Shown one piece after another: positions 8,320 to 28,568 of a stretch of 31,400 nt of DNA. Positions within the stretch are counted from its first letter, which is position 1. The number at the start of each line of letters is the position of its first letter. Below the pieces are notes generated by a model that saw nothing but the letters and a program-made list of their open reading frames with translations, was not told the origin of the DNA and did not search any database. The DNA is from a virus. Where the stretch lies: positions 1-31,400 of the IMG/VR virus record IMGVR_UViG_3300034198_003329, one strand, 5' to 3'. The position numbers were made by a program, and so were the translations under genes.

Positions 8320-11046
8320 ATGGCTGTATTTGATGCTAAAGCTTTTGCTGCTGTTGCTGGTAACGGTGGTGGTCCGGTAGAGGCAGTAGGAACTGCATTC
8401 GGAGTTCCTAGTTGCATGATTAATTTAGCAAATGATTTATTAAATTTGCTACCTTCTGAAATACTCCAAGGAATTAAGGATGCGATGCTTGAGGGTGTTA
8501 CCGCAGCAGATGATGTTGTTAAAAGTATAGTAGCAAATTTGTTTGGTTGGATGGGAATAATTGAATGGGATACAGAGGAGGGTGGATTTGTATTTAGATC
8601 AAAAGCATCCAAACTAGCTGCTGAAAAATCTGGAGTACTAGGTGTAATAAATGGATTTTTAAAAGCTGCTGCATTTGCTTCAAGACTTTATGAAAACTAT
8701 CAAACTGCTAGAAGCCAAATTGAATCAATGTACCGATGCATTAAGGACTTTCAAACTTATTTAAAATATGCAAATGGTAATGCAGCAAATGAAGTATCAA
8801 ATTTAACTGATGTACAGTATGATGAATATATAGATACACTTTATAATAACGAAAAGCAACAGATGATGGTTGCATTAGACTTTATTGATCAATGTAACGC
8901 ACAAATTGAATTGATTGATGGTATTTTAGAAGACAGAAGAAATAATCCAAGTTTAGAACCATCTTTCCTTTGTGAATTCTATAGTGAATTATCTGGAACT
9001 GGACTTAGGATTGAATGCGATCCTGCAACTCAAAAAGCCAAAGAAATCTTTAGATTAGTTTATGGACCACCTAAATCTACTTATGGACAATTTATATTAT
9101 CTAAAGATGGATTATACTTTGATTCTCAGACTAATGGAATTTATCCAGCATTAAATCATTTATTCTTTAAACAAGCTGCGTTTCCCAAAGGTGATAAATG
9201 GAAATTTAAACAAGATCCAAATATTGGCGGAAGGGGTGATTCATTCTCAACTAATGATTTAAAACTTTATGTAAATACTATACTAGATCCCTCTAAAATT
9301 GATGAATCAGAATCTCTAAAAGATTATTACAATTCGGATGCATTGTTACAAGAACTTTTGGGTAATAAAAATAAAAGAATTTATGATTTATCTTCTCAGT
9401 TATCAGAGCTTATAGAGGGTAATGCTCCAACGTCAATTATAACTAATTTTAAACAAGCAATAATATCAGAGAGTTTAATTATTCATGAAAAAATAAATAA
9501 ACGAAAAAAGCAGATAGAATTAGCAGTTGTATTACCTAGAATTTATGGAACTAATATAGAATATCAAATTGGAAAAATACCAATTAATGATTTTTCTTAT
9601 TTGGCTGGTTTGAATATTTCTTTAGATTTACAAAAACAAAAAGCATTAACATTCAGTCAAGTAGATATTTCAGGAGTTGTATCTCCTTTAGAGACAACTA
9701 CACCAATATACTCTGTACCTAAAGTTAATACTAAAAATACTAATTTTGAACATTTAATTATTGCGGAAAATGGAGCAGGGGCAATAATTTACGATGGTAG
9801 TAGTGTTTCATCTACTGATGCAGTTGTATTGCAAGCTGAAAACGTATTGACTACAGATTCTTTGTTTGCAATGTATAACTTTTTAGATACTGATATTGAA
9901 AGTCCATCTTCCACAGTATTTAGTTCAAGAAACTCTGCTTCCCAAAGCACTGAACTCTATGGTCAGTTAGTTGCTGAAAGCCAATCTGATGTATTTGAAA
10001 GAGGCTTAGGTGTTCCTTACTTCCAAGGAATAACTAAACATTCTAATACTTTACCAGGATCTTTATCTGGGCTTGGAAGTTTCTTTAGGTTACCTAATGA
10101 AAGACAGTTCAATGATTTATTATACAATAATACTGGAGCGAGTATAGATTTCTGGGTTCATGTTAATAATCTTAGTTCAATAGCAAATGGGTATAACGTT
10201 GGTAACGTTTCAAGTCTTTACAGACTTGTGTTATCTAACGAAAATACTGGATCTGTGGGGGATGTGAATACTAATACAGAATATATATCTAATGATTTTT
10301 CAAATAAACATGTCAGAGGATTTATGATGGGATTCACTCGGGATAGAAGATTAACTAAGGGTCTTCCTGCTAGTGAAATTGATTCAAATAATCCTGCTTC
10401 GGGCACTGTATTCTTCATAGCCCCTACACAATCAGTCACCGCATCATCTGTTGCTCTTATAAATAGATCAGCTTATGATTCACAGGATTGTAATGTTGGA
10501 ACAAAATACCACTCAATGACCTACCCTATAAGTTCAATAATTAATGGGGTTGCATTATCAGCGTGTCAAAATACGTTCTGCCATGTCGCTGTAACATTTG
10601 ATCCCAAAGAAGATTCTATTAATTTCTTTGTTGATGGTAAGAAAGTTCAAACTTCAAGCATGTCTTATGTTTTTGGTATAGAGCCTAATCACATGCCTAA
10701 TTTACCTACTGCTGCTGCTGCGAACAGTTTTGAGTATAACTCTTATTCTGTCGGATCATCTGCACCTAACTCATTGAAGTATGGACCTAAATTTGATGCT
10801 TTCAGAGGTCCAAATGGGGTAATTTTAAAGTATACCCCTTGGATTGTTGGTGGTGGGTATACGGATGGTTTATATAATAAAGGTAATTTCATGGGCGGTA
10901 AGTATGGTGGAATTATAAGTGGTCTAAGAGGGCATTTAGGTAGCATTAAATTCTATTCTAAACCATTAAATTCTTCGGAGATAATAAATAATTATAACAC
11001 TCAAAAGAATTTCTTTAAGAATATTGATACTTCTAAACTATCCTGA
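8320..11046 (+). CDS. Virion protein with C-terminal LamG/concanavalin-like lectin domain
   Basis: The product is 908 aa. Residues 1-130 are Ala-rich and helical (EILQGIKDAMLEGVTAADDV); about 130-480 are mixed helix/coil and unrecognised. From about 606 to 893 there is a LamG_3-type jelly roll: GASIDFWVHV (606-615), a GFMMGFTRDRR strand, FCHVAVTFDPKEDSINFFVDG (753-773, the classic 'HvA.tfd....i..yvdG' signature) and GHLGSIKFYSKPLNSSEI (871-888, the typical closing strand). Such domains bind glycans or proteins, so this is a candidate host-contact or decoration component attached near the baseplate. It lies between the spike and gp25-like genes. The start has GGGAG at 8306-8310, 9 bases before the ATG. 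The domain call is strong; the attachment site in the virion is unknown. Confidence 0.7.
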   Translation: MAVFDAKAFAAVAGNGGGPVEAVGTAFGVPSCMINLANDLLNLLPSEILQGIKDAMLEGVTAADDVVKSIVANLFGWMGIIEWDTEEGGFVFRSKASKLAAEKSGVLGVINGFLKAAAFASRLYENYQTARSQIESMYRCIKDFQTYLKYANGNAANEVSNLTDVQYDEYIDTLYNNEKQQMMVALDFIDQCNAQIELIDGILEDRRNNPSLEPSFLCEFYSELSGTGLRIECDPATQKAKEIFRLVYGPPKSTYGQFILSKDGLYFDSQTNGIYPALNHLFFKQAAFPKGDKWKFKQDPNIGGRGDSFSTNDLKLYVNTILDPSKIDESESLKDYYNSDALLQELLGNKNKRIYDLSSQLSELIEGNAPTSIITNFKQAIISESLIIHEKINKRKKQIELAVVLPRIYGTNIEYQIGKIPINDFSYLAGLNISLDLQKQKALTFSQVDISGVVSPLETTTPIYSVPKVNTKNTNFEHLIIAENGAGAIIYDGSSVSSTDAVVLQAENVLTTDSLFAMYNFLDTDIESPSSTVFSSRNSASQSTELYGQLVAESQSDVFERGLGVPYFQGITKHSNTLPGSLSGLGSFFRLPNERQFNDLLYNNTGASIDFWVHVNNLSSIANGYNVGNVSSLYRLVLSNENTGSVGDVNTNTEYISNDFSNKHVRGFMMGFTRDRRLTKGLPASEIDSNNPASGTVFFIAPTQSVTASSVALINRSAYDSQDCNVGTKYHSMTYPISSIINGVALSACQNTFCHVAVTFDPKEDSINFFVDGKKVQTSSMSYVFGIEPNHMPNLPTAAAANSFEYNSYSVGSSAPNSLKYGPKFDAFRGPNGVILKYTPWIVGGGYTDGLYNKGNFMGGKYGGIISGLRGHLGSIKFYSKPLNSSEIINNYNTQKNFFKNIDTSKLS

Positions 11047-11056
11047 GGATAATTAA

Positions 11057-11521
11057 ATGGTTTTTAATAGCACTGTCGAAGTTTATGGAAAAGGAGTTCC
11101 CAGATCAGCGGGATTCCTAACTAAAAGAAAAGCTAATAAATTTTTAGGATTTAAATTTCCAATATCTAATATTGAAGATGGTGGATTTTTAAATAGATCA
11201 GCCGATATTGAAGTTATAAAAGCTGGTCTTAGGCAGTTGCTACTTACCCGCAGAGGGGAAAGAGTGATGCTCCCTAACTATGGAACCAATTTAAAAAATT
11301 ACTTAATGGAGCCGTTGGATCAGGCAACTTTAAGTCAAATAAGAAGAGAAATAGTAGAATCATTCGCTAAATATGCTGTAGGAGTTAAATTATTAAAAAT
11401 ACAAGTATTCCCTAGTGATAGTCCAAGCCTATCAGGAGGTCATTTCTTGTATGTTAATTTATTTTGCTCTATTAAAGAGGAAGATACAGTATCTTTTGAA
11501 GTTAAAGTAGAGATAGCATAA
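11057..11521 (+). CDS. gp25-like baseplate wedge protein
   Basis: The protein is 154 aa, a usual size for the GPW/gp25 family. The hallmark is residues 61-86: LLLTRRGERVMLPNYGTNLK followed by NYLMEP. This matches the 'iL.T..GER.m.p.yGt.l...lfEp' pattern of T4 gp25, P2 gpW and T6SS TssE. The helix that follows (about 88-110) and the final strands also fit. In T4 this protein sits at the inner edge of the wedge and initiates sheath assembly. It follows GAGGAT in the leader, and its stop codon shares one base with the start of the gp6-like gene, the normal 25-6-7 wedge order. Confidence 0.88.
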   Translation: MVFNSTVEVYGKGVPRSAGFLTKRKANKFLGFKFPISNIEDGGFLNRSADIEVIKAGLRQLLLTRRGERVMLPNYGTNLKNYLMEPLDQATLSQIRREIVESFAKYAVGVKLLKIQVFPSDSPSLSGGHFLYVNLFCSIKEEDTVSFEVKVEIA

Positions 11522-13134
11522 TGGCATTTAAAGGAACAGTAGAATCAGATTTTTTAAAACTTGCTAAAGTTGAAGAAGTTGATAAGCAAAAATTAATTAA
11601 TTTTGCCTCTACAGACTTTTTAACTTTAAGAGATTCATTATTAAACTACATAAAAGCTGTTTATCCTTTAGATTATAATTACTTTTCAGAATCAGACTTT
11701 GGCATGATGCTCATAGAGTTAGTCTCCTACATGGGACATATTCTATCCTATAAGGCTGACTACTTGGCTAACGAGAACTTTTTAAAGACTGCAAGATCAA
11801 GAGAGAGCGTAAGAAACTTAATGCAGTTAATAGGTATCAGAATGAAGGGTCCAATAGCTGCGGCTGCAAATGCATCTTTAACTTTAGATCAACCAGTGTC
11901 ATGGTCTGTAACTGGGACTGGATCTTATGTAACTGTAAGCGCAGCAGATAGAGTTATTAGCATAACATCCCCAGAAGATAACCTCCCATTAACTTATACT
12001 TTGTATAAGGTATCCCCAGATGGAGATATAGATACTGCAAACGCAAATGGAAGTATTGTAATTTATGAATCAGAAAAAACTTCAGCAAACACTTTAACTA
12101 ATTTGGTTTTGCTTGAAGGCTCATTAGTTATTGAGCAAGGAACATTTGTTGACACAGAATCATTAAAGAGTGTAAAATTACAACAAGGCCCAATTATTGA
12201 AGGTAGCGTTCAAACAGTTATAACTGGACAGGAATCTACTAACGGTGTTTATCGACAAGTAGACAATTTATTCTTTGCTTCGGGCTCAGATGATAAAGTG
12301 TTTCAATTAATATCTGATAATAATTATGGTGGAATTGTAGTATTTGGTGATAGCAACCTAGGCAAAGTCCCAGCTATTGGAGACAGTTATACCATTATTT
12401 ATAGAATTGGCGGTGGTAGTAGAGGTAATATAATTTCTAATTTAATAAATGCACCAGTAAACATTACATATGCAGATATAAGTGGAACTTACAGGAGCTT
12501 AACTGCCACTGTTGTAAACACTTCACAAGGCACTGGGGGAACTGATGCAGAGACAATTGCTCATGTAAAGAAGTATGGCCCACTAATGTTTAGAAGCCAA
12601 AATAGGCTTGTAACTTTATCTGATTATAAAACTTTCGTGAATAGTTATATATCTTCTTATGGCTCAGTGGGTAAGGCTACGGTTGCAACTAGAAGAGCAT
12701 ATTCCTCTGCTAACATTATTGATGTTTATGTTTTAGAAAAAACAAATAATACTCAACTTAGAAAAGCTACACCTGAATTTAAAAGACAAATAGCGGAAGC
12801 AATACAAGATAAAAAAATGCTTACAGATGAAGTTGTAATGGTTGATGGTTTGATAAGAACTCTTGACGTACAAATTTCATTAAGACTTGATAAAAAATAT
12901 GAAACTTTAGAAAATACTATAAAAAGCAAAGTAAACAATAAAATTTCAGAATTCTTTAATATTGATAATACAGATTTTGGAAAAGAATTTAATCCTCAAG
13001 ATTTAATGTATTCAATTTTTGAAGTAGAAGAGATTAGATTCGCAACAATTGATAATATCCCAGAAGCTATTCAAGTTAATTTTAACGAAATAGTTCAATT
13101 AAATAATTATACTTTAAATTTCTATTATGTCTAG
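11521..13134 (+). CDS. gp6/BaseplateJ-like baseplate wedge protein
   Basis: The 537-aa protein has the N-terminal block of gp6/gpJ proteins (about 27-115: LRDSLLNYIKAVYP, DYNYFSESDFGMMLIELVSY, then YKADYLANENFLKTA with RESVRNLMQLIG). The C-terminal block GGTDAETIAHVKKYGPLMFR, followed by RLVTLSDYKTFV (about 340-372), is the usual 'GG.d.Es......P...r.....vt..DY' signature. In the wedge it would dimerise and, with the gp7-like partner, form the inner ring that controls baseplate opening. It starts on the last base of the gp25-like stop codon and overlaps the gp7-like gene by 8 bases, which implies coupled translation in fixed ratio. It is shorter than T4 gp6 (660 aa), as in many simpler myoviruses. 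Confidence 0.88.
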   Translation: MAFKGTVESDFLKLAKVEEVDKQKLINFASTDFLTLRDSLLNYIKAVYPLDYNYFSESDFGMMLIELVSYMGHILSYKADYLANENFLKTARSRESVRNLMQLIGIRMKGPIAAAANASLTLDQPVSWSVTGTGSYVTVSAADRVISITSPEDNLPLTYTLYKVSPDGDIDTANANGSIVIYESEKTSANTLTNLVLLEGSLVIEQGTFVDTESLKSVKLQQGPIIEGSVQTVITGQESTNGVYRQVDNLFFASGSDDKVFQLISDNNYGGIVVFGDSNLGKVPAIGDSYTIIYRIGGGSRGNIISNLINAPVNITYADISGTYRSLTATVVNTSQGTGGTDAETIAHVKKYGPLMFRSQNRLVTLSDYKTFVNSYISSYGSVGKATVATRRAYSSANIIDVYVLEKTNNTQLRKATPEFKRQIAEAIQDKKMLTDEVVMVDGLIRTLDVQISLRLDKKYETLENTIKSKVNNKISEFFNIDNTDFGKEFNPQDLMYSIFEVEEIRFATIDNIPEAIQVNFNEIVQLNNYTLNFYYV

Positions 13135-16100
13135 TCCAGTTAAATTTATAGATAACAGACAGTATCACAAATCAAACTATAGTGATGCTTTAAAATATAT
13201 TATTCCAAATCTATATTTTGAAGAGGATTATGCATTAAAAGATAAACAAATAGACATCCTAGATCAAATAATAAATTCTCATTTAAATGTAATAGGAAAT
13301 ATATCTTCAATAATAAATGTAAGTTCTATCCCAGGATCAATTTATAGCTCATTAAATACCGCAGAAGGAATTTCAAAATTTTTCGTAAAACAAAATAATT
13401 TAACTAATATTAGTATTGACGATTTTGAAAAATTAATTTTACTCCCTCTTAATAATTCATTTAGAAATTTTAATTCAAGTTCACAATTTTCAGATTATTT
13501 AAAAAATACATTACTTCCTGGGATAAGACTTAATAAACCTACATTGGACTTTTTAGATGGTGGATCAGTTAGTGCAAATCATGATTACTTAGTAACTAAC
13601 CTTTCATGGTTATACTTTTTAAATTTAAGTGGACCACCCTCTTTAACTTATAACCCATCGTCGTTTGTTCATGATATTTTAATTGAAAATACCTACAACG
13701 CAAAAACTATAAATCTTAATGATGCGATGAGAGGTTTGTCTTATTATATTTGGAAAAATTATTTAACTAAACCAGCATGGCAATCTTTAAATATTCTTCC
13801 AAATGACTTTACTCCATTATCATCTATTACAAACACAACTTGGACAAGTGGAACACAGCAATTAGAAAAACTATGCACTTTAATAGATGTAGTATACTCT
13901 CCATTATATATTGATGATGGAGATGTTAAAGTAAAAGATGCTATAAATGATTACTTAAATACTTCATACCTTTTAACAGATAAAAAACTTCAGGGACCAT
14001 TTTTAAAATTATTAAAAGCATTTTCTTTTGCTTTTGCAGATTACTCAAATCAAGTTGACAGATTAGAAATATTAAATGATTTAGATAATTGTCCAGATGA
14101 TTATTTGCCATTACTTGCAGATCTAATTGGGTGGAATCTTTTTGGAACTGATCCAGGTAGATGGAGATTGCAGCTAGCAAATGCTGTCAACATCTATAAA
14201 ATGGTAGGAACTAAAAAGTCCATACAATTTATAGCCAATTCTGTATTCGGGCAAGATGTGTTTAATGTCAGTTCAAATATATTTGAACTTTGGGAATCTT
14301 ATGTTCCTTATTTAATTTATTATGCACTTGCAACAGAATCATCCTTATTGAAAGACTTCACTACTTGGAACTCACAATTAGCAAATAATTTAGGTTGCGG
14401 ATTTAGTTTTAGTAGTATGGATGATAATTTAAAATATTGCACTGATAAAATTATCAAAGATTTAGTATATCAATTTAATTCACAATTTTTATTAAATAGC
14501 AAACCATTTCCATTAGATACTGAAAACTTTGTATTTAATTATCGCAATAAACAAAATCCTATTCCACCCTTTGAAGAAATTCCATATTATTTAGATGTAA
14601 TAATAACTGAAGAGATGCTTGAGTCTATAAGTGATAGACTTGTTTGTTTTGGAGTCAGAGAAGATTTTGCAAATCAATTAATTGATTATATTAGATCACA
14701 CACTATTGATGCACTAGAAGATTATTCAATTAGAAATAGCTGGTTGATGTTTACACCAAGTGCAGAGTATGCCCCAAACTGGGACTCAGTAATTGAGAAT
14801 ATTTCTAACAATAAAGTAGAGTATCTTTCATTATGGAATGGTAAGTCATCCTACTTCCAAGTTCTTTTTGATGCATCCAGTTTTGATTTTACAAAAACTT
14901 CCTTAGAGGCAGATTCTAAAGAAGTTTTAAAGATAACTTCACAAGCTATAAATAATTTCTCTCCAGCAAAATCAGTTCCTAATGTAACTCTAAGAGCATC
15001 AACAGAAGATGATTACTTATCTGATAATATTACGTTCCCTTACTTAGGATTAGATAAGGTAGATTATGCGTCATTAAAGTATACTAGCGGTGCTGCTTTG
15101 GCTGGATTTGGCATGTCAGCCTTAGTTATGGGAACTTACAAGAGGGGTTTGACTCCAACCTCTGTAAACTCATTTGGTCGTTTGGATGTGGATAGTCTTC
15201 AAGATAATCTAATATCATCACAAGGAACTGTAGCTAATTTACCAAGAAGAAATCATAGAAGAAGAAATTATAAATTAACACTACCTAGAGATGGTTATTA
15301 TGATCGCACAGGATTCAATATGCCAACACCATTGAATTCTTACAGTGCTAATGGATATAATTTCTTACCACTAGGTTTAATACCTTCTTCGCAAACATAT
15401 GTAACTATACCAAACTACAGCAGTATTCCAGATATTTATAGTAAATGCGAAGGATTAAATTCTAGTAGTGTATATTCAGGTTTAATTGTAAGTAACACTT
15501 ATCCAATTCGTGGTTGGAGAGGTATTGAATCAAATGCTAAAATTAATCAACTAGGTAGGAGACCTGATTATTATTTTGATTATGGTCAGTTGCACCCTAT
15601 TATGGCCGTTATGCATTATATAGGAGAACAAAGTAAGATATTACAAGCATCATCCTACTACTATAGTAATCCAGAAGAATTTACATCTTATGGCGCATGG
15701 CAAAATATTTTACAAAATTATGCAAACAGTTCTACAGAATTTAATAAAGCATTTCCAAGTTCATATAATGATTATATAAATTTTTCTTTTGGTAGAGAAT
15801 TTCATAAGTTATTTAATATTTATACTCATGAATTTCAGAGACATACTCTAGATCCTAGAGTTATGTATTTAGATGGTCCAACAATATTTGGACATGCATT
15901 AGGGTCTGTTTTATATAATTCAAATTTAAATAAAAATGGAAGTTTTGCTAGCGCAAATCCTCAAGTTATAACGTCTAGCTTTGCTGATGTTGTAGAGCAC
16001 AAGGCTGGGCTAGGATTGTTCTCTTACGAGGGTATTGCTTCTGGTAGTTACATAGCATCATCAGATTTATATTTAAATTCATATGAATATAGAAGTTCCG

Positions 16101-17125
16101 GTATCTTAGACGGAATAGAGTTATCTCAGACATCAGGAACTAGTACCGATAATAGTTTTTCAATAATTAGACTTAATAAGTCTAATAAAATTGGAAATAG
16201 ATATAATTCTTTATTCCACGAAAATACTGTCATACGACAAAGGTCAACTGATGGATTTGGTAGAATTATTTTTGATATAAGCAAATACTCCCCAGATATT
16301 TCACTTGGTTATAAAGGATTTAAAAACTTTTTAATACCAGAACATAAATTTAAATTAAATTTTAAATCATTAATAATTAATGATAATGGGGAATCTATTG
16401 GTGGGGATTCTGTTGGTATATGGATTCATACTAAACCAGAAAATGGAAAAATTTGGAGTTATACTAAAAATAAAATTTGGATACAGCATGATGTTTCATC
16501 ATTAAACTCTAATGAAGTAATAGATAATTATTCTCATATTTTTGGATCAAATGAATCTCAAAGAGATTTAAGTTCTTTAAATATAAATTGTAATTTATTT
16601 CAAATACAATCTAATACTAATAGAGTAAATGATTTATTAGCTTCTATACAACAATCTGAATTTAATAATTTTGAATTAGAATTCAATACTGAGAATATTT
16701 TAATTGAAGTTCCATCAGATTATCATATTAACATATCCCAGCAAGTTCATAGATTAGACCAAAATTATGTTATAGAAATATTTACTAATTCGACAAGATC
16801 TGATAGATCAACTTTATTCTATGATATAAATTTAATAGATCAAACACTAAATACTTGGTCTAAACCTTTAGTAGATAAAAAAGGTTGTAAAGAATTTAGA
16901 GTAGATTTAAGTAAGCCTCAAGTAATGACTATAATAAAATATTTTAATGAATTAACTGGGGCTTACAGTAAGTTTGGTTATGCTAGCAGAGTTGCTAGTT
17001 ACACTTCGGGAGTATATGAAGTTTCAGGTGGTAGTAGAATAAATCACATGGAAAGTCCAGAATGGATGGCTAACACTAAACTAAGTGGTTATAATCTTTT
17101 AAAAGAAATTACTTTTACAAATTAA
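13127..17125 (+). CDS. gp7 / tail protein I-like baseplate wedge protein, enlarged
   Basis: At 1332 aa this exceeds T4 gp7 (1032 aa). Residues about 290-376 hold the tail-protein-I core: FADYSNQVDRLEIL, NCPDDYLPLLADLIGW, RWRLQLANAVNIYKMVGTKK, then SIQFIANSVFG. This is the helical domain that pairs with gp6/gpJ in the wedge. The rest, nearly 1000 residues, is Ser/Asn/Tyr-rich and strand-rich and includes SVGIWIHTKPENGKIWSYTK near residue 1096, which suggests jelly-roll modules projecting outward. The start overlaps the gp6-like gene and has no Shine-Dalgarno of its own. The 25-6-7 order and overlap support the wedge role. The C-terminal extension is probably where peripheral fibres attach; that part is inference. 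Confidence 0.75.
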   Translation: MSSPVKFIDNRQYHKSNYSDALKYIIPNLYFEEDYALKDKQIDILDQIINSHLNVIGNISSIINVSSIPGSIYSSLNTAEGISKFFVKQNNLTNISIDDFEKLILLPLNNSFRNFNSSSQFSDYLKNTLLPGIRLNKPTLDFLDGGSVSANHDYLVTNLSWLYFLNLSGPPSLTYNPSSFVHDILIENTYNAKTINLNDAMRGLSYYIWKNYLTKPAWQSLNILPNDFTPLSSITNTTWTSGTQQLEKLCTLIDVVYSPLYIDDGDVKVKDAINDYLNTSYLLTDKKLQGPFLKLLKAFSFAFADYSNQVDRLEILNDLDNCPDDYLPLLADLIGWNLFGTDPGRWRLQLANAVNIYKMVGTKKSIQFIANSVFGQDVFNVSSNIFELWESYVPYLIYYALATESSLLKDFTTWNSQLANNLGCGFSFSSMDDNLKYCTDKIIKDLVYQFNSQFLLNSKPFPLDTENFVFNYRNKQNPIPPFEEIPYYLDVIITEEMLESISDRLVCFGVREDFANQLIDYIRSHTIDALEDYSIRNSWLMFTPSAEYAPNWDSVIENISNNKVEYLSLWNGKSSYFQVLFDASSFDFTKTSLEADSKEVLKITSQAINNFSPAKSVPNVTLRASTEDDYLSDNITFPYLGLDKVDYASLKYTSGAALAGFGMSALVMGTYKRGLTPTSVNSFGRLDVDSLQDNLISSQGTVANLPRRNHRRRNYKLTLPRDGYYDRTGFNMPTPLNSYSANGYNFLPLGLIPSSQTYVTIPNYSSIPDIYSKCEGLNSSSVYSGLIVSNTYPIRGWRGIESNAKINQLGRRPDYYFDYGQLHPIMAVMHYIGEQSKILQASSYYYSNPEEFTSYGAWQNILQNYANSSTEFNKAFPSSYNDYINFSFGREFHKLFNIYTHEFQRHTLDPRVMYLDGPTIFGHALGSVLYNSNLNKNGSFASANPQVITSSFADVVEHKAGLGLFSYEGIASGSYIASSDLYLNSYEYRSSGILDGIELSQTSGTSTDNSFSIIRLNKSNKIGNRYNSLFHENTVIRQRSTDGFGRIIFDISKYSPDISLGYKGFKNFLIPEHKFKLNFKSLIINDNGESIGGDSVGIWIHTKPENGKIWSYTKNKIWIQHDVSSLNSNEVIDNYSHIFGSNESQRDLSSLNINCNLFQIQSNTNRVNDLLASIQQSEFNNFELEFNTENILIEVPSDYHINISQQVHRLDQNYVIEIFTNSTRSDRSTLFYDINLIDQTLNTWSKPLVDKKGCKEFRVDLSKPQVMTIIKYFNELTGAYSKFGYASRVASYTSGVYEVSGGSRINHMESPEWMANTKLSGYNLLKEITFTN

Positions 17126-17126
17126 T

Positions 17127-19067
17127 ATGCTAATAGATCAAGCTGGAGAATTAATTGCTGATGTAATGACTGCTAATCGCAGCCTTTCTTCCATACCATC
17201 TGCCTCTGCTATATTAGATGCATCTAATTATACTTTTCATGCTATTAGTTATGGTAAAGATGCCGATGGTTTTAGGCATCATGCACATGAAATAATAAAT
17301 ACTGTTGACTCTATAATTCCCTCCAGAAAAACTTTAGTAATTTTTGGAGGGGCAGACTCCTCGGGTGTCAACAATCAAACTTGGGAATTATCTGGAACTT
17401 CTTGGAGTTCAGTGTCATTAACAACCAATCCAGGAATACGCATAAAACATTCTACAGCATACGATTCAACTAGAGGTAGATTAGTATTATTTGGTGGGTA
17501 TTCTGGAAACGTTCCTGTATTTTATGGAGATACTTGGGAGTTAAGCAGCAGTATAAGTTCAACAAGTTGGAATTTAATTTCGACAAGTGGACCATCGCCT
17601 AGAGAAGGCGCTGCGATGGCTTACGATTCTATTTCTAGTAGAACTTTATTATTTGGCGGTAGATCAATACAGGGAAATTTAATTACATATAAAAATGATT
17701 TATGGTCATGGGATGGTACTAATTGGACAGAATTAGTTCATACTAACAGACCTTCCGCAAGAGCTTTTCATAAAATAGTGTTTGATAGTTCTAGAAATCG
17801 TTTAGTTTTATTTGGTGGTGGAATTTCTGGGGGCAAGTTAGGGGACACCTGGGAATGGGGTGGAAGTTCTTGGACCAGAGTTTCAACCACAGGCCCTTCA
17901 AGTAGGCAAGACTTTGGTATGGTTTATGATAGCTATAACTCAAAAACTGTCTTGTATGGGGGAGAGGATTCTACTGGCGCATCAAAGGATGATGTGTGGT
18001 CTTGGAACGGAACATCCTGGTCCCAGGTAACTCCAACAGGGGCTGGTGGTGCTGGTAGAAGAAAATTGCACGGTATGGTCTTTTGCCCAGATAGAAATCA
18101 ATCTTTAGTTTTTGGAGGATTTAATCCAAATTCTCCTAATACTTATTATCGTGATACTTGGGCTTTTAATTATACTGTAAGTCCATTTTGGTCCCTAATA
18201 TCAACTTCTGGACCTAGTGGGCGTATTCAACATAGTGTAGATTATTTTGATAATAAAAACCCCACACAAATAATGACTCCTAATGATGGGATTATAAAAG
18301 TTTTATCTTATGAGCCTATCTCAGTTTCTAGTTACCATACTTTAGCTACAGCCTCAGGTTTATTTAGTAGTTATAAATTATTACCTAATTCAATAAAACC
18401 AACTGATACTAGATTGGAATCTAACTCAACAGTTACCTTATACTCTACTAATGTACCCGATGTTGGGCATTGCTTAAATTCATATTTAAATTCAAATTTA
18501 TCTTCTTATAGTCATTTAGTAGGTTGCTTCCCAGCAGCTAGTGGAACCAAATACTGGATGATATCCTCAACATTTAATCCAAGCTCTAATATCATTATAT
18601 CTGGAACGTTGTCCAGTGTTTATAATCAGCAAAAAATAATGGACATGTCTGGATTTTTAACTTTTGTTGAAGAATCTTTAGCTGTTCAAAATGAATTATT
18701 AGCTACTGAAAATTATTTATCTGGTGCTTTAAGAACAACCCCAAATGAGTTTCCTCAAAAAATAAGATTAGCTTGGGGCCTTTACCCAGGTGATGCAGGG
18801 TCATTACTATTGTTTGGGGGTATATACCACTTAGGTTTATGGTATTTAGACTTAAAAGAGATGTTAAAACAAGGTTATTATCCTCCTTATAACTTTAATG
18901 CACTAAATAATATAAGAAAATATAAGCTTTTTGCAAAGAAAACTTTTAATAAAGACTTATTATACCTAAATGACAATGGGTCTAATTCAGGATTTAAAAG
19001 TGTTTTTGAGCAAAATGCTCTTGGTGCTGACTGTATAAAATATATTTGGGATATAAAATTTTATTAA
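17127..19067 (+). CDS. Tail protein with inserted six-bladed kelch beta-propeller
   Basis: The product is 646 aa. Residues 1-62 (LIDQAGELIADVMTANRSL, then NYTFHAISYGKDADGF) and about 385-646 (DGIIKVLSYEPISVSSYHT to the end) look like one phage structural protein split in two. Between them, residues about 66-378 form kelch repeats. The FGG/YGG strands are at 73, 122, 176, 229, 277 and 329, spaced 48-54 residues, each followed by DTWEL/DLWSW/DVWSW and then SW or NW about 7 residues later. The next blade's AYDS or VFDS strand comes after a GPSxR turn. The last GRIQHSVDYF supplies the strand missing from blade 1, so the ring closes as six blades. Propellers bind proteins or glycans, so a receptor role is possible. 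The gene follows the gp7-like gene by one base with no Shine-Dalgarno. The kelch call is strong; the host protein is unnamed. Confidence 0.75.
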   Translation: MLIDQAGELIADVMTANRSLSSIPSASAILDASNYTFHAISYGKDADGFRHHAHEIINTVDSIIPSRKTLVIFGGADSSGVNNQTWELSGTSWSSVSLTTNPGIRIKHSTAYDSTRGRLVLFGGYSGNVPVFYGDTWELSSSISSTSWNLISTSGPSPREGAAMAYDSISSRTLLFGGRSIQGNLITYKNDLWSWDGTNWTELVHTNRPSARAFHKIVFDSSRNRLVLFGGGISGGKLGDTWEWGGSSWTRVSTTGPSSRQDFGMVYDSYNSKTVLYGGEDSTGASKDDVWSWNGTSWSQVTPTGAGGAGRRKLHGMVFCPDRNQSLVFGGFNPNSPNTYYRDTWAFNYTVSPFWSLISTSGPSGRIQHSVDYFDNKNPTQIMTPNDGIIKVLSYEPISVSSYHTLATASGLFSSYKLLPNSIKPTDTRLESNSTVTLYSTNVPDVGHCLNSYLNSNLSSYSHLVGCFPAASGTKYWMISSTFNPSSNIIISGTLSSVYNQQKIMDMSGFLTFVEESLAVQNELLATENYLSGALRTTPNEFPQKIRLAWGLYPGDAGSLLLFGGIYHLGLWYLDLKEMLKQGYYPPYNFNALNNIRKYKLFAKKTFNKDLLYLNDNGSNSGFKSVFEQNALGADCIKYIWDIKFY

Positions 19068-19070
19068 TTT

Positions 19071-19682
19071 ATGATATTAAATTTATTAGAAGAATTGGAT
19101 ATTAAAGGTCACTTAACCATTTCTAAGGTCTATTCAAATGGATCTGAGGAGATTGTATTTGATGATCATAATATAATTGTATCAGGGATGGGTGTGGCTT
19201 TAGCACATTTATTTTCTTTATCTGAGTCTAATTCAATACTAGATTATCAAATTGATAGGTTTCAATTAGGTGTATCTGGCCTAACTGCTTATGAGGTAAG
19301 CACTACTAATAAATTAACTAGACCACTAAGTAGTATATCTGAATATGCTGGGACGGCTGGAAATATACTTGTCGATAAAGTATATCAAATAAAAAATAAT
19401 GTAATTGATACTACTGAAGTTTGTTATGGTTTAATACCTCAACAAAATATAACTCGTATAGATCCAAATACAGTTAGATACACAATATTTATTGATCAAG
19501 ATTCTTGTAATAATATCACAAGAGGTGGTTCTGCTGCTTCAATAAACGAGATAGGATTATTTATAAAAAATATAAAAAATAATAATCCTGCTGCACCTAT
19601 TTTAGTTGCTTATAGAGTCTTTAGTAATATCATAAAGACCTCAGATTTTTCTTTAGTTTTTAGATGGAGTATAAACTTCTAA
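19071..19682 (+). CDS. Putative tail/baseplate connector protein (203 aa)
   Basis: The family is not named with confidence. The protein starts with a short helix and strands (KGHLTISKVYSNGSEEIVFD). It has a Gly-containing stretch, IIVSGMGVALAHLF, at about 35-48, and ends with ILVAYRVFSNIIKTSDFSLV and then FRWSINF. Endings of the form 'aYr.F..i.Kt..f.l.f.W.I.f' occur in phage peripheral baseplate and fibre-connector proteins, where the C-terminal strands join a larger assembly. NEIGLFIKN (about 165-173) is a similar structural strand. It lies 3 bases after the kelch protein and 1 base before the beta-helix fibre, so it may link these to the wedge, in the slot where T4 has gp8/gp9. No clear ribosome site is seen. 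Confidence 0.45.
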   Translation: MILNLLEELDIKGHLTISKVYSNGSEEIVFDDHNIIVSGMGVALAHLFSLSESNSILDYQIDRFQLGVSGLTAYEVSTTNKLTRPLSSISEYAGTAGNILVDKVYQIKNNVIDTTEVCYGLIPQQNITRIDPNTVRYTIFIDQDSCNNITRGGSAASINEIGLFIKNIKNNNPAAPILVAYRVFSNIIKTSDFSLVFRWSINF

Positions 19683-25627: not shown

Positions 25628-28243
25628 ATGGTTTTTGATACTCCTCAAAGATTTCCATGTGGAGACTTTAAACCTGGGTATGCTCCAAGTCCAGGTCCAG
25701 GAGTTAATAATTCACATCCTGTAGTTTATGTTCCTACTTTAGTTAGACCTGAAGAAGTTTTTGTAGTTCCTGATTCACGAATTCCTCCAGGTGGCCCAGA
25801 TATACCTGTCCCAGGAACTCCAAGCACTGGAAATCCCTCTGGCCCAACTCCTAAAGGCCCTGCAACTCCTCGTGGTGGTGGTTCAACTGGGGGTGGCGGT
25901 GGGGGAACTACAACCCCTAGATTCCCCCCAAGAGGAGATACAACTGGTGGTGGTAGAAGAGGTCCGGTTACTCCTAGAGGCACAGTGCCAGATATAAGAT
26001 GGAGGTGTGCATCCCAAGATCAATTTTGTCCACCAAATGGTAGTGAAACCCAATCATTAGTAGTAAGTGCAACACAAAGAAGATGTGTAAGATGTGATCA
26101 GGGGGCAGCAGAATCTATAGGTTCTTGGTATGGTAGGTGTCCATTTGAAACGGAAAATGCTTGTTTAACATTATGTAGGAGTAGCACAGTTAGCCCAATT
26201 CCTTGTATTACAACAACAACTACAGGTGGGTCAGTTGTAACTCCAAGGAATGAAACTAATCAAAATCCAAATGATTTAAAAACATCATTACTTCGGAGTA
26301 GTTCAGTTACTAATTCTAACATAGATTCAATGATGTTAAGAAACTCTGCTCCTAAGAAAATTACTACAAATATAGTAATAAACAATAAAAATTTTAAAGG
26401 TAACTCATCAACTTCTGCGGGATACAATGACTCAAGCATGTATCATCCCTATTATAATTTCTTTAAAACACAAGCAGATCCTAATACTAAATTAGTTTCA
26501 AACAATTTATACACTAATATTTTTTCAGATTTAATAGCATCAGAGGTTAATTACTTTTTAAATAATGTAAATTCTGGTGGGCCTTGGCACGAAATAAAAA
26601 TAAATAATTTAACTACAGAAAAAATTGCAATAAGTTTAAAACCTGAACTATTAACTGCATTAACAAATATACACACTATTGCTAATAAAAGAGTAAGTGA
26701 ACAAGAGTTTTTAGAAGTAATAAAAAAACATTTATTAGAGGGGACTATAGATCAATTTGATCCAAATTATTATTTCTATACTTACAATGAACAAATAGAA
26801 GATGAAGTTATTGAATATTCAGAGACTGGCGAGACTAGGGCTTCCATCGACGCAGCCCTATCAATCTTTGAAGTAAACTCTAATAATCCAAACTACGAAA
26901 CTTTAGAAACCTCCACTGAAAAAACTGAATACAAAAGAATGAGATTCTTATTAGAAGATATTGAATCTGGAATAAGGGTCTTACAGATAGAAGGAAATCA
27001 AGACAATCTTTTACTAAATAATGTAGGTGCTCCAGTAAGGATGATAGATGAATCTTCTTTTGTTCCACAGACTATAGATACAGAGGTTAGAATAGGTGAC
27101 GGAGCAGGATATTATTTTTCAACATTATTAATTGATGGAAGTGAATACCCTTTACCATCTGAGCATTCTTTAAGTGATGTTGGACATTTAAATCCTAATA
27201 GTAAATACGCTTCTTTAAATATTCTAGGGAAAGCTGGAGATCTGAGATTGACTGTAAGTTCTCAACAATCATATCATGAACTTACCCCTGGGTATAATTT
27301 CTCATCGGACGTTGGTGTAATGTATTTTGCATTAGATTTAAAATCAGTAGGAGATATACCAAATCCAAACTCAGTAATTAATATATTATCTGGAACTTAC
27401 AAAAGACTAACAGATGAAGAAGCAGCCCACCATTCAAGAAATTATAGTTTTAATATAGTTAAAGTTAATATTGATTACAAAGATCCGTTTATTCAATATT
27501 CAAGAGACACTAGTAATATTTACTTGGAACAAGATGATTTTGATCTAAGAGAGTTTGATGTAAATAGATCTATAAAGTCTTTTAGAATAATGCCAAGAAC
27601 AATACCCGCAGCAATAATATTAACTCCGGGCTGCGGATCTTATCATAATCCATTTAATAGTAAATCAAATATTAAACAATTTAATAATACTCTAATTATC
27701 AGGATATTAACAGTAAGACCATCTCATGATTCAAGAGATAGCACAATTGATAAACCATTAATAGATAAAGCTAATATTTATGAAACTATAGGTACCGATC
27801 ATTTTGGCTTATACGAAAAATATTTATTACCAGATATACATGGTAGTATATTTACATATAGTCCTAGTTCCGATATATTTAATCAATCATACTATTATAA
27901 TGGAGAGTATAGTAATATACAACCTCCTTCAAGTATGCGTGACGGATCACCTGAATCAAAACTTATTAATTTAATTAATAAATTAACATCTTTAGAAGGT
28001 GTAGAACAATTAACTTGGTGGGACGTTTTTAGAAGATTAAATTTAAATGAAATTGCATCTTTAAATTATACTAGCAATGATTCTTTAATCAAAGAATTAT
28101 CTATCGGGTATAGTAATGGAGTTCCTATAAAACATGTCCTATCTAGATGGGATATTAGACCAACAGGTATACCTGATGGAGTGGTGATAGAAAATGATAA
28201 AATTTATGTTAATGTGGAGGACAGAGTTTTAGATGCCACGTAG
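25628..28243 (+). CDS. Structural protein with Pro/Gly linker and eight-Cys domain
   Basis: The product is 871 aa. Residues 49-120 are a Pro/Gly/Thr/Arg low-complexity linker (PRGGGSTGGGGGGTTTPRFP is typical). Residues 127-193 hold eight cysteines (127, 134, 153, 156, 171, 179, 183, 193) with a C-x2-C pair, so they form either a disulfide-stapled module or a metal-binding one. A Thr-rich spacer follows. From about 240 to 871 the protein is unrecognised, Asn/Ser/Ile-rich and apparently mixed alpha/beta, with ITNLTT-like and RSIKSFRIMPRTIPAAIILT strands. It precedes and overlaps the PAAR tip gene by 11 bases, so it is probably a late tail component made with it. The linker suggests a flexible tether that displays or joins the Cys domain. 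The role is unknown. Confidence 0.55.
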   Translation: MVFDTPQRFPCGDFKPGYAPSPGPGVNNSHPVVYVPTLVRPEEVFVVPDSRIPPGGPDIPVPGTPSTGNPSGPTPKGPATPRGGGSTGGGGGGTTTPRFPPRGDTTGGGRRGPVTPRGTVPDIRWRCASQDQFCPPNGSETQSLVVSATQRRCVRCDQGAAESIGSWYGRCPFETENACLTLCRSSTVSPIPCITTTTTGGSVVTPRNETNQNPNDLKTSLLRSSSVTNSNIDSMMLRNSAPKKITTNIVINNKNFKGNSSTSAGYNDSSMYHPYYNFFKTQADPNTKLVSNNLYTNIFSDLIASEVNYFLNNVNSGGPWHEIKINNLTTEKIAISLKPELLTALTNIHTIANKRVSEQEFLEVIKKHLLEGTIDQFDPNYYFYTYNEQIEDEVIEYSETGETRASIDAALSIFEVNSNNPNYETLETSTEKTEYKRMRFLLEDIESGIRVLQIEGNQDNLLLNNVGAPVRMIDESSFVPQTIDTEVRIGDGAGYYFSTLLIDGSEYPLPSEHSLSDVGHLNPNSKYASLNILGKAGDLRLTVSSQQSYHELTPGYNFSSDVGVMYFALDLKSVGDIPNPNSVINILSGTYKRLTDEEAAHHSRNYSFNIVKVNIDYKDPFIQYSRDTSNIYLEQDDFDLREFDVNRSIKSFRIMPRTIPAAIILTPGCGSYHNPFNSKSNIKQFNNTLIIRILTVRPSHDSRDSTIDKPLIDKANIYETIGTDHFGLYEKYLLPDIHGSIFTYSPSSDIFNQSYYYNGEYSNIQPPSSMRDGSPESKLINLINKLTSLEGVEQLTWWDVFRRLNLNEIASLNYTSNDSLIKELSIGYSNGVPIKHVLSRWDIRPTGIPDGVVIENDKIYVNVEDRVLDAT
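25889..25905 (+). other. G-rich tract with G-quadruplex-like spacing
   Basis: GGGGGTGGCGGTGGGGG gives four G-runs of two or more separated by single bases, within the Gly-linker codons of the 871-aa gene. It could form a two-tetrad quadruplex in DNA or RNA, but it is also simply what Gly codons produce. The tract is visible; folding is untested. Confidence 0.4.
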
Positions 28244-28568
28244 AGCTTTAACACATTTAGATGGGACTACTGGCCAAGGCATAGGTGGTCATAACTGTAG
28301 TCCTCTAATAGGAGTTATAACTCCTATTAATCCGCTTAATTTACTTGTTACTATAGGTGGAATTCCTATTTGTGTAGCTGGAGATATTCTACCCCCTCAT
28401 GTTAATTGCCCCGGACATCAAACTGTTGTAAATCCTGCATTTTGTAGTTTAGGAGTAAAGGTTGGTGGGTTTCCCGTAGCCGTTGAACTAGGGACTTTAG
28501 TATGTGGTGATACTTTATTAAAAATATTGCCAGGGGATGTTTTTATTGGAGATTCTATATTAGGTTAG
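28233..28568 (+). CDS. PAAR-domain spike tip protein
   Basis: The 111-aa protein fits the PAAR family that caps phage and T6SS spikes. It has repeated GD turns (AGDILPPH at 49-56, CGD at 91-93, PGDVFIGDSI at 100-109) and a cluster of possible metal ligands: H8, H20, C22, C47, H56, C59, H62, C71 and C91. PAAR proteins use three His and one Cys to bind the tip metal; which of these do so is not determined here. It should sit on the beta-helix spike encoded at 7145-8314, far upstream. It starts inside the last codons of the 871-aa gene, with GGAGG about 13 bases before the ATG. Residues 29-37 repeat the spike C-terminus with one substitution. Confidence 0.82.
   Translation: MPRRALTHLDGTTGQGIGGHNCSPLIGVITPINPLNLLVTIGGIPICVAGDILPPHVNCPGHQTVVNPAFCSLGVKVGGFPVAVELGTLVCGDTLLKILPGDVFIGDSILG

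Follow-up and report, generated by a model that had tools for sequence, protein, structure and literature searches.

We describe here a six-bladed kelch propeller nested within o12, a protein encoded in the tail region of a virus record of 31.4 kb (the window, by which we mean the whole stretch of DNA analysed). The propeller stands where most homologues have only a short loop, and homologues that are filled or empty at this one point, with collinear flanks, identify it as a nested domain (three filled, 72 empty). The explanation that we consider reasonably probable is that a bacterial-type propeller was inserted into this loop and is displayed outward from the particle, where it would act as an adsorption module.

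The o12 gene lies in a tail and baseplate module with baseplate genes on both sides (Table 1), and a gp53-like gene and a prohead protease gene are also found around it. The presence near o12 of gp53-like, gp25, gp6/J, weakly matching gpI, PAAR-like tip and prohead protease genes identifies this as the region for baseplate and fibres in a large myophage related to T4. The same region is present, with five differences in 21,611 bases, in another record that was assembled independently, and because the o12 frame is open and identical in it, the propeller reading frame is not an artefact of assembly. The phage belongs to an uncultivated group whose close relatives are absent among the sequenced phages searched: a tblastn search of 50,697 phage records with o12 gave no match at E 0.001, the propeller alone reached a best value of only E 0.2 against the phage database, and o12 of an empty-site relative had no match there.

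Table 1. Coordinates of o12, its parts and neighbouring genes in the window.
Feature	Position	Strand	Size or residues	Remarks
gpW/gp25 baseplate wedge protein	11057..11521	+
Baseplate J / T4 gp6-like wedge protein	11521..13134	+
o11	13127..17125	+	1332 aa	Weak Tail_P2_I match; no cargo in the window phage
o12	17127..19067	+	646 aa	Encoded in the tail region; contains the kelch propeller
o12, N-terminal flank	17127..17297	+	1-57	Kept in propeller-less relatives; remote similarity to the start of o13
o12, inserted segment	about 17298..18284	+	about 58-386	Defined against empty sites; takes the place of a few-residue SPSG-like loop
o12, six-bladed kelch propeller	17322..18260	+	66-378	Repeats, Pfam, AlphaFold2, Foldseek
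o12, C-terminal flank	18285..19064	+	from about 387	Kept in propeller-less relatives
o13	19071..19682	+	203 aa	Start domain in common with long forms of o12
PAAR-like spike tip protein	28233..28568	+

Two observations on neighbouring genes are noted here. The start of o12 and o13 appear to have a start domain in common (hhalign probability 93.7), and the similarity suggests a duplicated adaptor; o13 is itself present as two copies in some relatives. A 908-residue protein encoded at 8320-11046 of the window has a laminin-G/concanavalin-type lectin match close to its end (E 3.3e-6).

Repeats and predicted fold of the propeller

The six-bladed kelch propeller recognized in the preliminary description is borne out by several kinds of evidence. 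FGG/YGG strands occur six times, at residues 73, 122, 176, 229, 277 and 329, with a spacing of 48-54 residues and spaced tryptophans after each, whereas at most four such strands arose when these residues were shuffled 20,000 times. Pfam models for kelch repeats match o12 strongly (Kelch_KLHDC2_KLHL20_DRC7, E 2.4e-35; Kelch_4, 3.7e-16; Kelch_3, 1.5e-15). Structure prediction likewise yields a propeller, AlphaFold2 placing residues 67-378 mostly at pLDDT 75-98 (about 90) from a trimmed mixed alignment in which a short FGG piece is still misplaced, and in which the last blades rest on the rows of the window phage and one relative (L006), the bacterial rows giving none of the support. A Foldseek search of the PDB gave 324 matches at E<=0.001, and KLHL12, Keap1 and the designed six-bladed SAKe6 superimpose with TM scores of 0.84-0.87 (by target length) and rmsd values of about 2.4-2.9 A.

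The repeat motif is seen in the sequence and a closed circular fold in the model, with the closing strand inferred from strand order. The predicted end strands at 67-73 and 370-376 fit closure of the ring by GRIQHSVDYF (365-374), as had been proposed from the sequence, and support this arrangement short of proving it. In a propeller the two ends are neighbours, so that it can be placed in a loop with the fold of the host protein intact. The o12 flanks are predicted with pLDDT below 50 in the window model, and a model of an empty relative has a mean pLDDT of 57 and found nothing in the PDB at E below 0.6. A ligand site is not recognisable in the propeller sequence.

The insertion site and its history

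Relatives were gathered by searching with the gp6 gene and the o12 flanks, one of these searches yielding roughly 220 homologues, and many have the same gene order. Among 75 distinct o12 homologues, 72 have no insert and are compact, with lengths of about 290-420 residues and with the N- and C-terminal parts joined by a short loop like HAHEILSPSGDGIIKV; the corresponding sequence in the window phage is HAHEII-[329 aa]-DGIIKV. The earlier proposal that the propeller was inserted into a loop of a tail-region protein is therefore upheld, and it withstood the two refuting conditions set with it, since the predicted fold is a propeller and most homologues of the flanks are without it; the assigned interval corresponds to the propeller itself and the DNA added relative to empty sites is somewhat wider (Table 1). 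At the nucleotide level, similarity to the kelch-filled L006 and the empty L011 ends at 17288-17298 and restarts near 18777-18789. Since only three homologues are filled, the compact o12 is most likely the ancestral form and the propeller an addition, as judged from these sequence comparisons.

The three filled homologues are those of the window phage, of L005/L006, which carry a propeller at the same site, and of L025, which carries there an unrelated, non-kelch domain of 264 residues with no family match (L025:12852-13700). The L005/L006 propeller is only 36-38% identical to that of the window phage, whereas their flanks are 81% and 59% identical, and because of this divergence at a common site the suggestion that the insertion was recent is not supported. 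Base composition had also been put forward as a hint of a recent or foreign origin. The difference itself is real, G+C being 39.2% in the propeller against flank values of 35.4% and 30.7%, but the excess falls mainly at codon position 2 (0.553) and reflects the amino acids used by the propeller. GC3 is 0.243 in the propeller and 0.201 in the C-terminal flank, and 4.7% of gene windows of the same length reach the propeller value. With GC3 close to that of the flank, we rejected G+C as a sign of foreign origin; neither unusual GC3 nor a near-identical donor was seen, the best identity to a donor being about 40%.

The number of gains is less easily settled. In a three-gene tree L006 branches before a clade formed by the window phage and the empty L011 group (98/96 and 95/94), the latter being the closest to the window phage, and the window propeller is no more similar to that of L006 than to bacterial propellers (36% versus up to 40% identity). 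These observations favour two separate gains, in the window and L006 lineages, over one shared gain. However, a sister grouping of the two phages is not rejected on the three-gene tree (p-AU 0.144), their propellers group together, weakly, in the propeller tree (90/86), and the single-gene trees conflict with one another. This disagreement suggests that recombination has probably mixed the gene histories, so that one gain and two gains are not separable, and we regard two gains as possible but slightly the weaker proposition. The fact that two lineages have kelch domains at the same site, grouped in the propeller tree, could alternatively reflect a propeller ancestral to the o12 family and lost from most relatives. 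This is highly improbable, since the 72 empty homologues include every deep branch except one, parsimony on the flank tree requires three changes with empty homologues all around, and the SPSG-like loop is common to empty relatives on both sides. L105, with an o11 insert of about 845 residues, was entered both in this flank tree and in the comparison of insertion points given below.

A second insertion point and the proposed role of the propeller

The upstream gene o11 also has an insertion point. In relatives of the window phage, o11 carries cargo of 298-1535 residues near residue 797-803 (about base 15515-15535), and in some of them o11 is split at this point, with the cargo opening the second part. 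The relatives concerned are L008, L011, L012, L018, L019, L022, L041, L072, L073, L084, L092, L093, L096, L100 and L105. The cargo is varied. In L012 it is a SASA-type (sialate) carbohydrate esterase domain within the gpI-like protein (L012:13977-15065, E 2.1e-9), and in L008 and L044 it consists of propeller-like repeats with weak similarity to the window propeller by blastp. In L023 an additional gene of 1208 residues stands at the cargo point (L023:14054-17680), and the end of its product matches copper radical oxidases, with an E-set match at 1.9e-17, matches in the PDB, and a GlxA model match at 1.1e-25 that is below the model cut-off. A tail-linked oxidase of this kind would be unusual.

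Several further features of the cargo were observed. Inserts similar to the L012 SASA domain are present in L017, L019 and L041. The cargo of L011, L018 and L022 has no family match and is parallel-helix- or SGNH-enzyme-like by eye only. Alignment of the C-terminal part of the L023 protein with galactose oxidase/GlxA brings the Tyr-His and His motifs together, and the Cys and Tyr motifs, judged by eye, are where they would be expected. Searching the PDB by sequence with the inserts of L011, L018, L012 and L008 gave no match. SGNH and helix enzymes are frequent in phage receptor-binding proteins (PMC13123978).

None of the phages compared has both docks filled (0/3 versus 12/64, Fisher p 1.0), and mutual exclusion of the o12 and o11 docks is only a suggestion. 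It is conceivable, and we propose it tentatively, that the o12 loop and o11 residue 800 are alternative docks for host-contact modules (propellers, esterases, oxidases and helix-type enzymes), such that lineages could switch between them with the rest of the tail unchanged.

Several roles can be considered for the propeller. In the one that we favour, o12 would be a small conserved protein of the tail tip or fibre region, encoded right after the P2 gpI-like baseplate gene, and in an ancestor a bacterial-type six-bladed kelch propeller would have taken the place of the short loop flanked by residues 57 and 387, leaving the rest of o12 undisturbed. Carried outward from the particle on its two adjoining ends, the closed propeller may touch a sugar or protein on the host surface; such binding is probable by analogy with other phage propellers. 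The variability at the o12 site is consistent with a receptor-binding, host-range role. We also count towards host contact the carbohydrate-active types held by the o11 dock (the SASA esterase and the copper-radical-oxidase-like gene), the unrelated same-site domain of L025, and a propeller of the same kind at the end of the gpI-like tail protein of an unrelated phage contig (L002:6891-9203).

The main alternative is that the propeller is a structural connector that binds a tail or fibre protein (e.g. o11, o14 or o15) and not the host. Kelch domains commonly bind proteins, and the Foldseek matches are to protein-binding kelch domains, so that the propeller may have its partner within the virion; a kelch protein in the mature virion of a Rak2-like jumbo phage, CBB_552, has also been suggested to bind proteins (PMC5259590). 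A connector is nevertheless unlikely, given that the 72 propeller-less relatives have the same neighbour genes, from which it follows that the propeller is not required for assembly in general, and given that L025 has an unrelated domain at the very same site. Still less probable is an enzyme of the galactose oxidase type acting on surface polysaccharide. The Pfam titles of Kelch_3 and Kelch_4 do refer to the galactose oxidase central domain, and a copper-radical-oxidase-like protein occupies the neighbouring dock of a relative, but the window protein has neither a GO-like_E_set domain nor a radical-oxidase family match, and its six-bladed propeller differs from the seven-bladed one of galactose oxidase. 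Assignment to the AA5 copper radical oxidases, which combine seven blades and an E-set domain with copper-ligand Tyr and His and a Cys-Tyr crosslink, was considered and rejected, there being no E-set or oxidase match in o12. We retain adsorption to the host as the preferred role.

Probable source of the propeller and relation to known systems

Kelch domains had been described at the outset as best known from eukaryotic proteins and some bacterial enzymes. The present domain is not of an exceptional eukaryotic type, for close matches are found in many bacterial genomes, and bacteria also supply its closest cellular relatives. When one genome per species was scanned, kelch proteins related to it appeared in Acidobacteriota, Myxococcota, Verrucomicrobiota, Planctomycetota, Chloroflexota and others, at identities from 27% to about 40%. 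This spread across bacterial phyla makes a bacterial source likely on sequence grounds, although a specific donor is not visible. The kelch-repeat proteins of Acidobacteriota, Myxococcota, Verrucomicrobiota and others have the same DTWxWDGTxW style of repeat as o12, but are stand-alone or multi-domain cellular proteins outside phage tails.

Propellers have been reported in the phage adsorption proteins phi11 RBP, PRD1 P2 and phiKZ gp131, although the role of gp131 is itself unproven (PMC4901313). Staphylococcus phage phi11 gp45 resembles o12 in having a beta-propeller on a baseplate-linked tail protein, proposed to hold a host sugar (PMC4901313), but its propeller is five-bladed and non-kelch, and belongs to a trimeric fibre with stem and tower and is not nested in a loop of a small protein. 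Similarly, in the large myophage phiKZ, gp131 places a propeller with a suspected adsorption role at the edge of the baseplate (PMC4901313), but as a C-terminal domain of seven blades. The jumbo phage proteins CBB_550, CBB_552 and CBB_554 (PMC5259590) are kelch-type propellers of large phages, one of them in the virion, and a virion structural protein of Noxifer is a further predicted propeller protein of a large phage; unlike o12, the jumbo-phage kelch proteins are not shown as an insert with empty-site relatives. Host-contact domains are also known to be exchanged by shuffling in tail and baseplate proteins (PMC10684548), from which o12 differs in having an internal nested insert, many empty-site relatives and a second dock in the adjacent gene.

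Propellers on phage tails and the shuffling of tail domains are thus already known, and what is new is a kelch propeller nested at a site that is empty in many relatives, together with the paired docks. The o12 family shows clearly, in nature, a phage tail protein before and after it received an entire propeller, and lets the grafting of large domains into loops of structural proteins, and its effect on host range, be tested. The cargo of the o11 dock is varied, with a carbohydrate esterase and an oxidase-like gene among its types, and this suggests a shared site at which these phages exchange host-contact parts.
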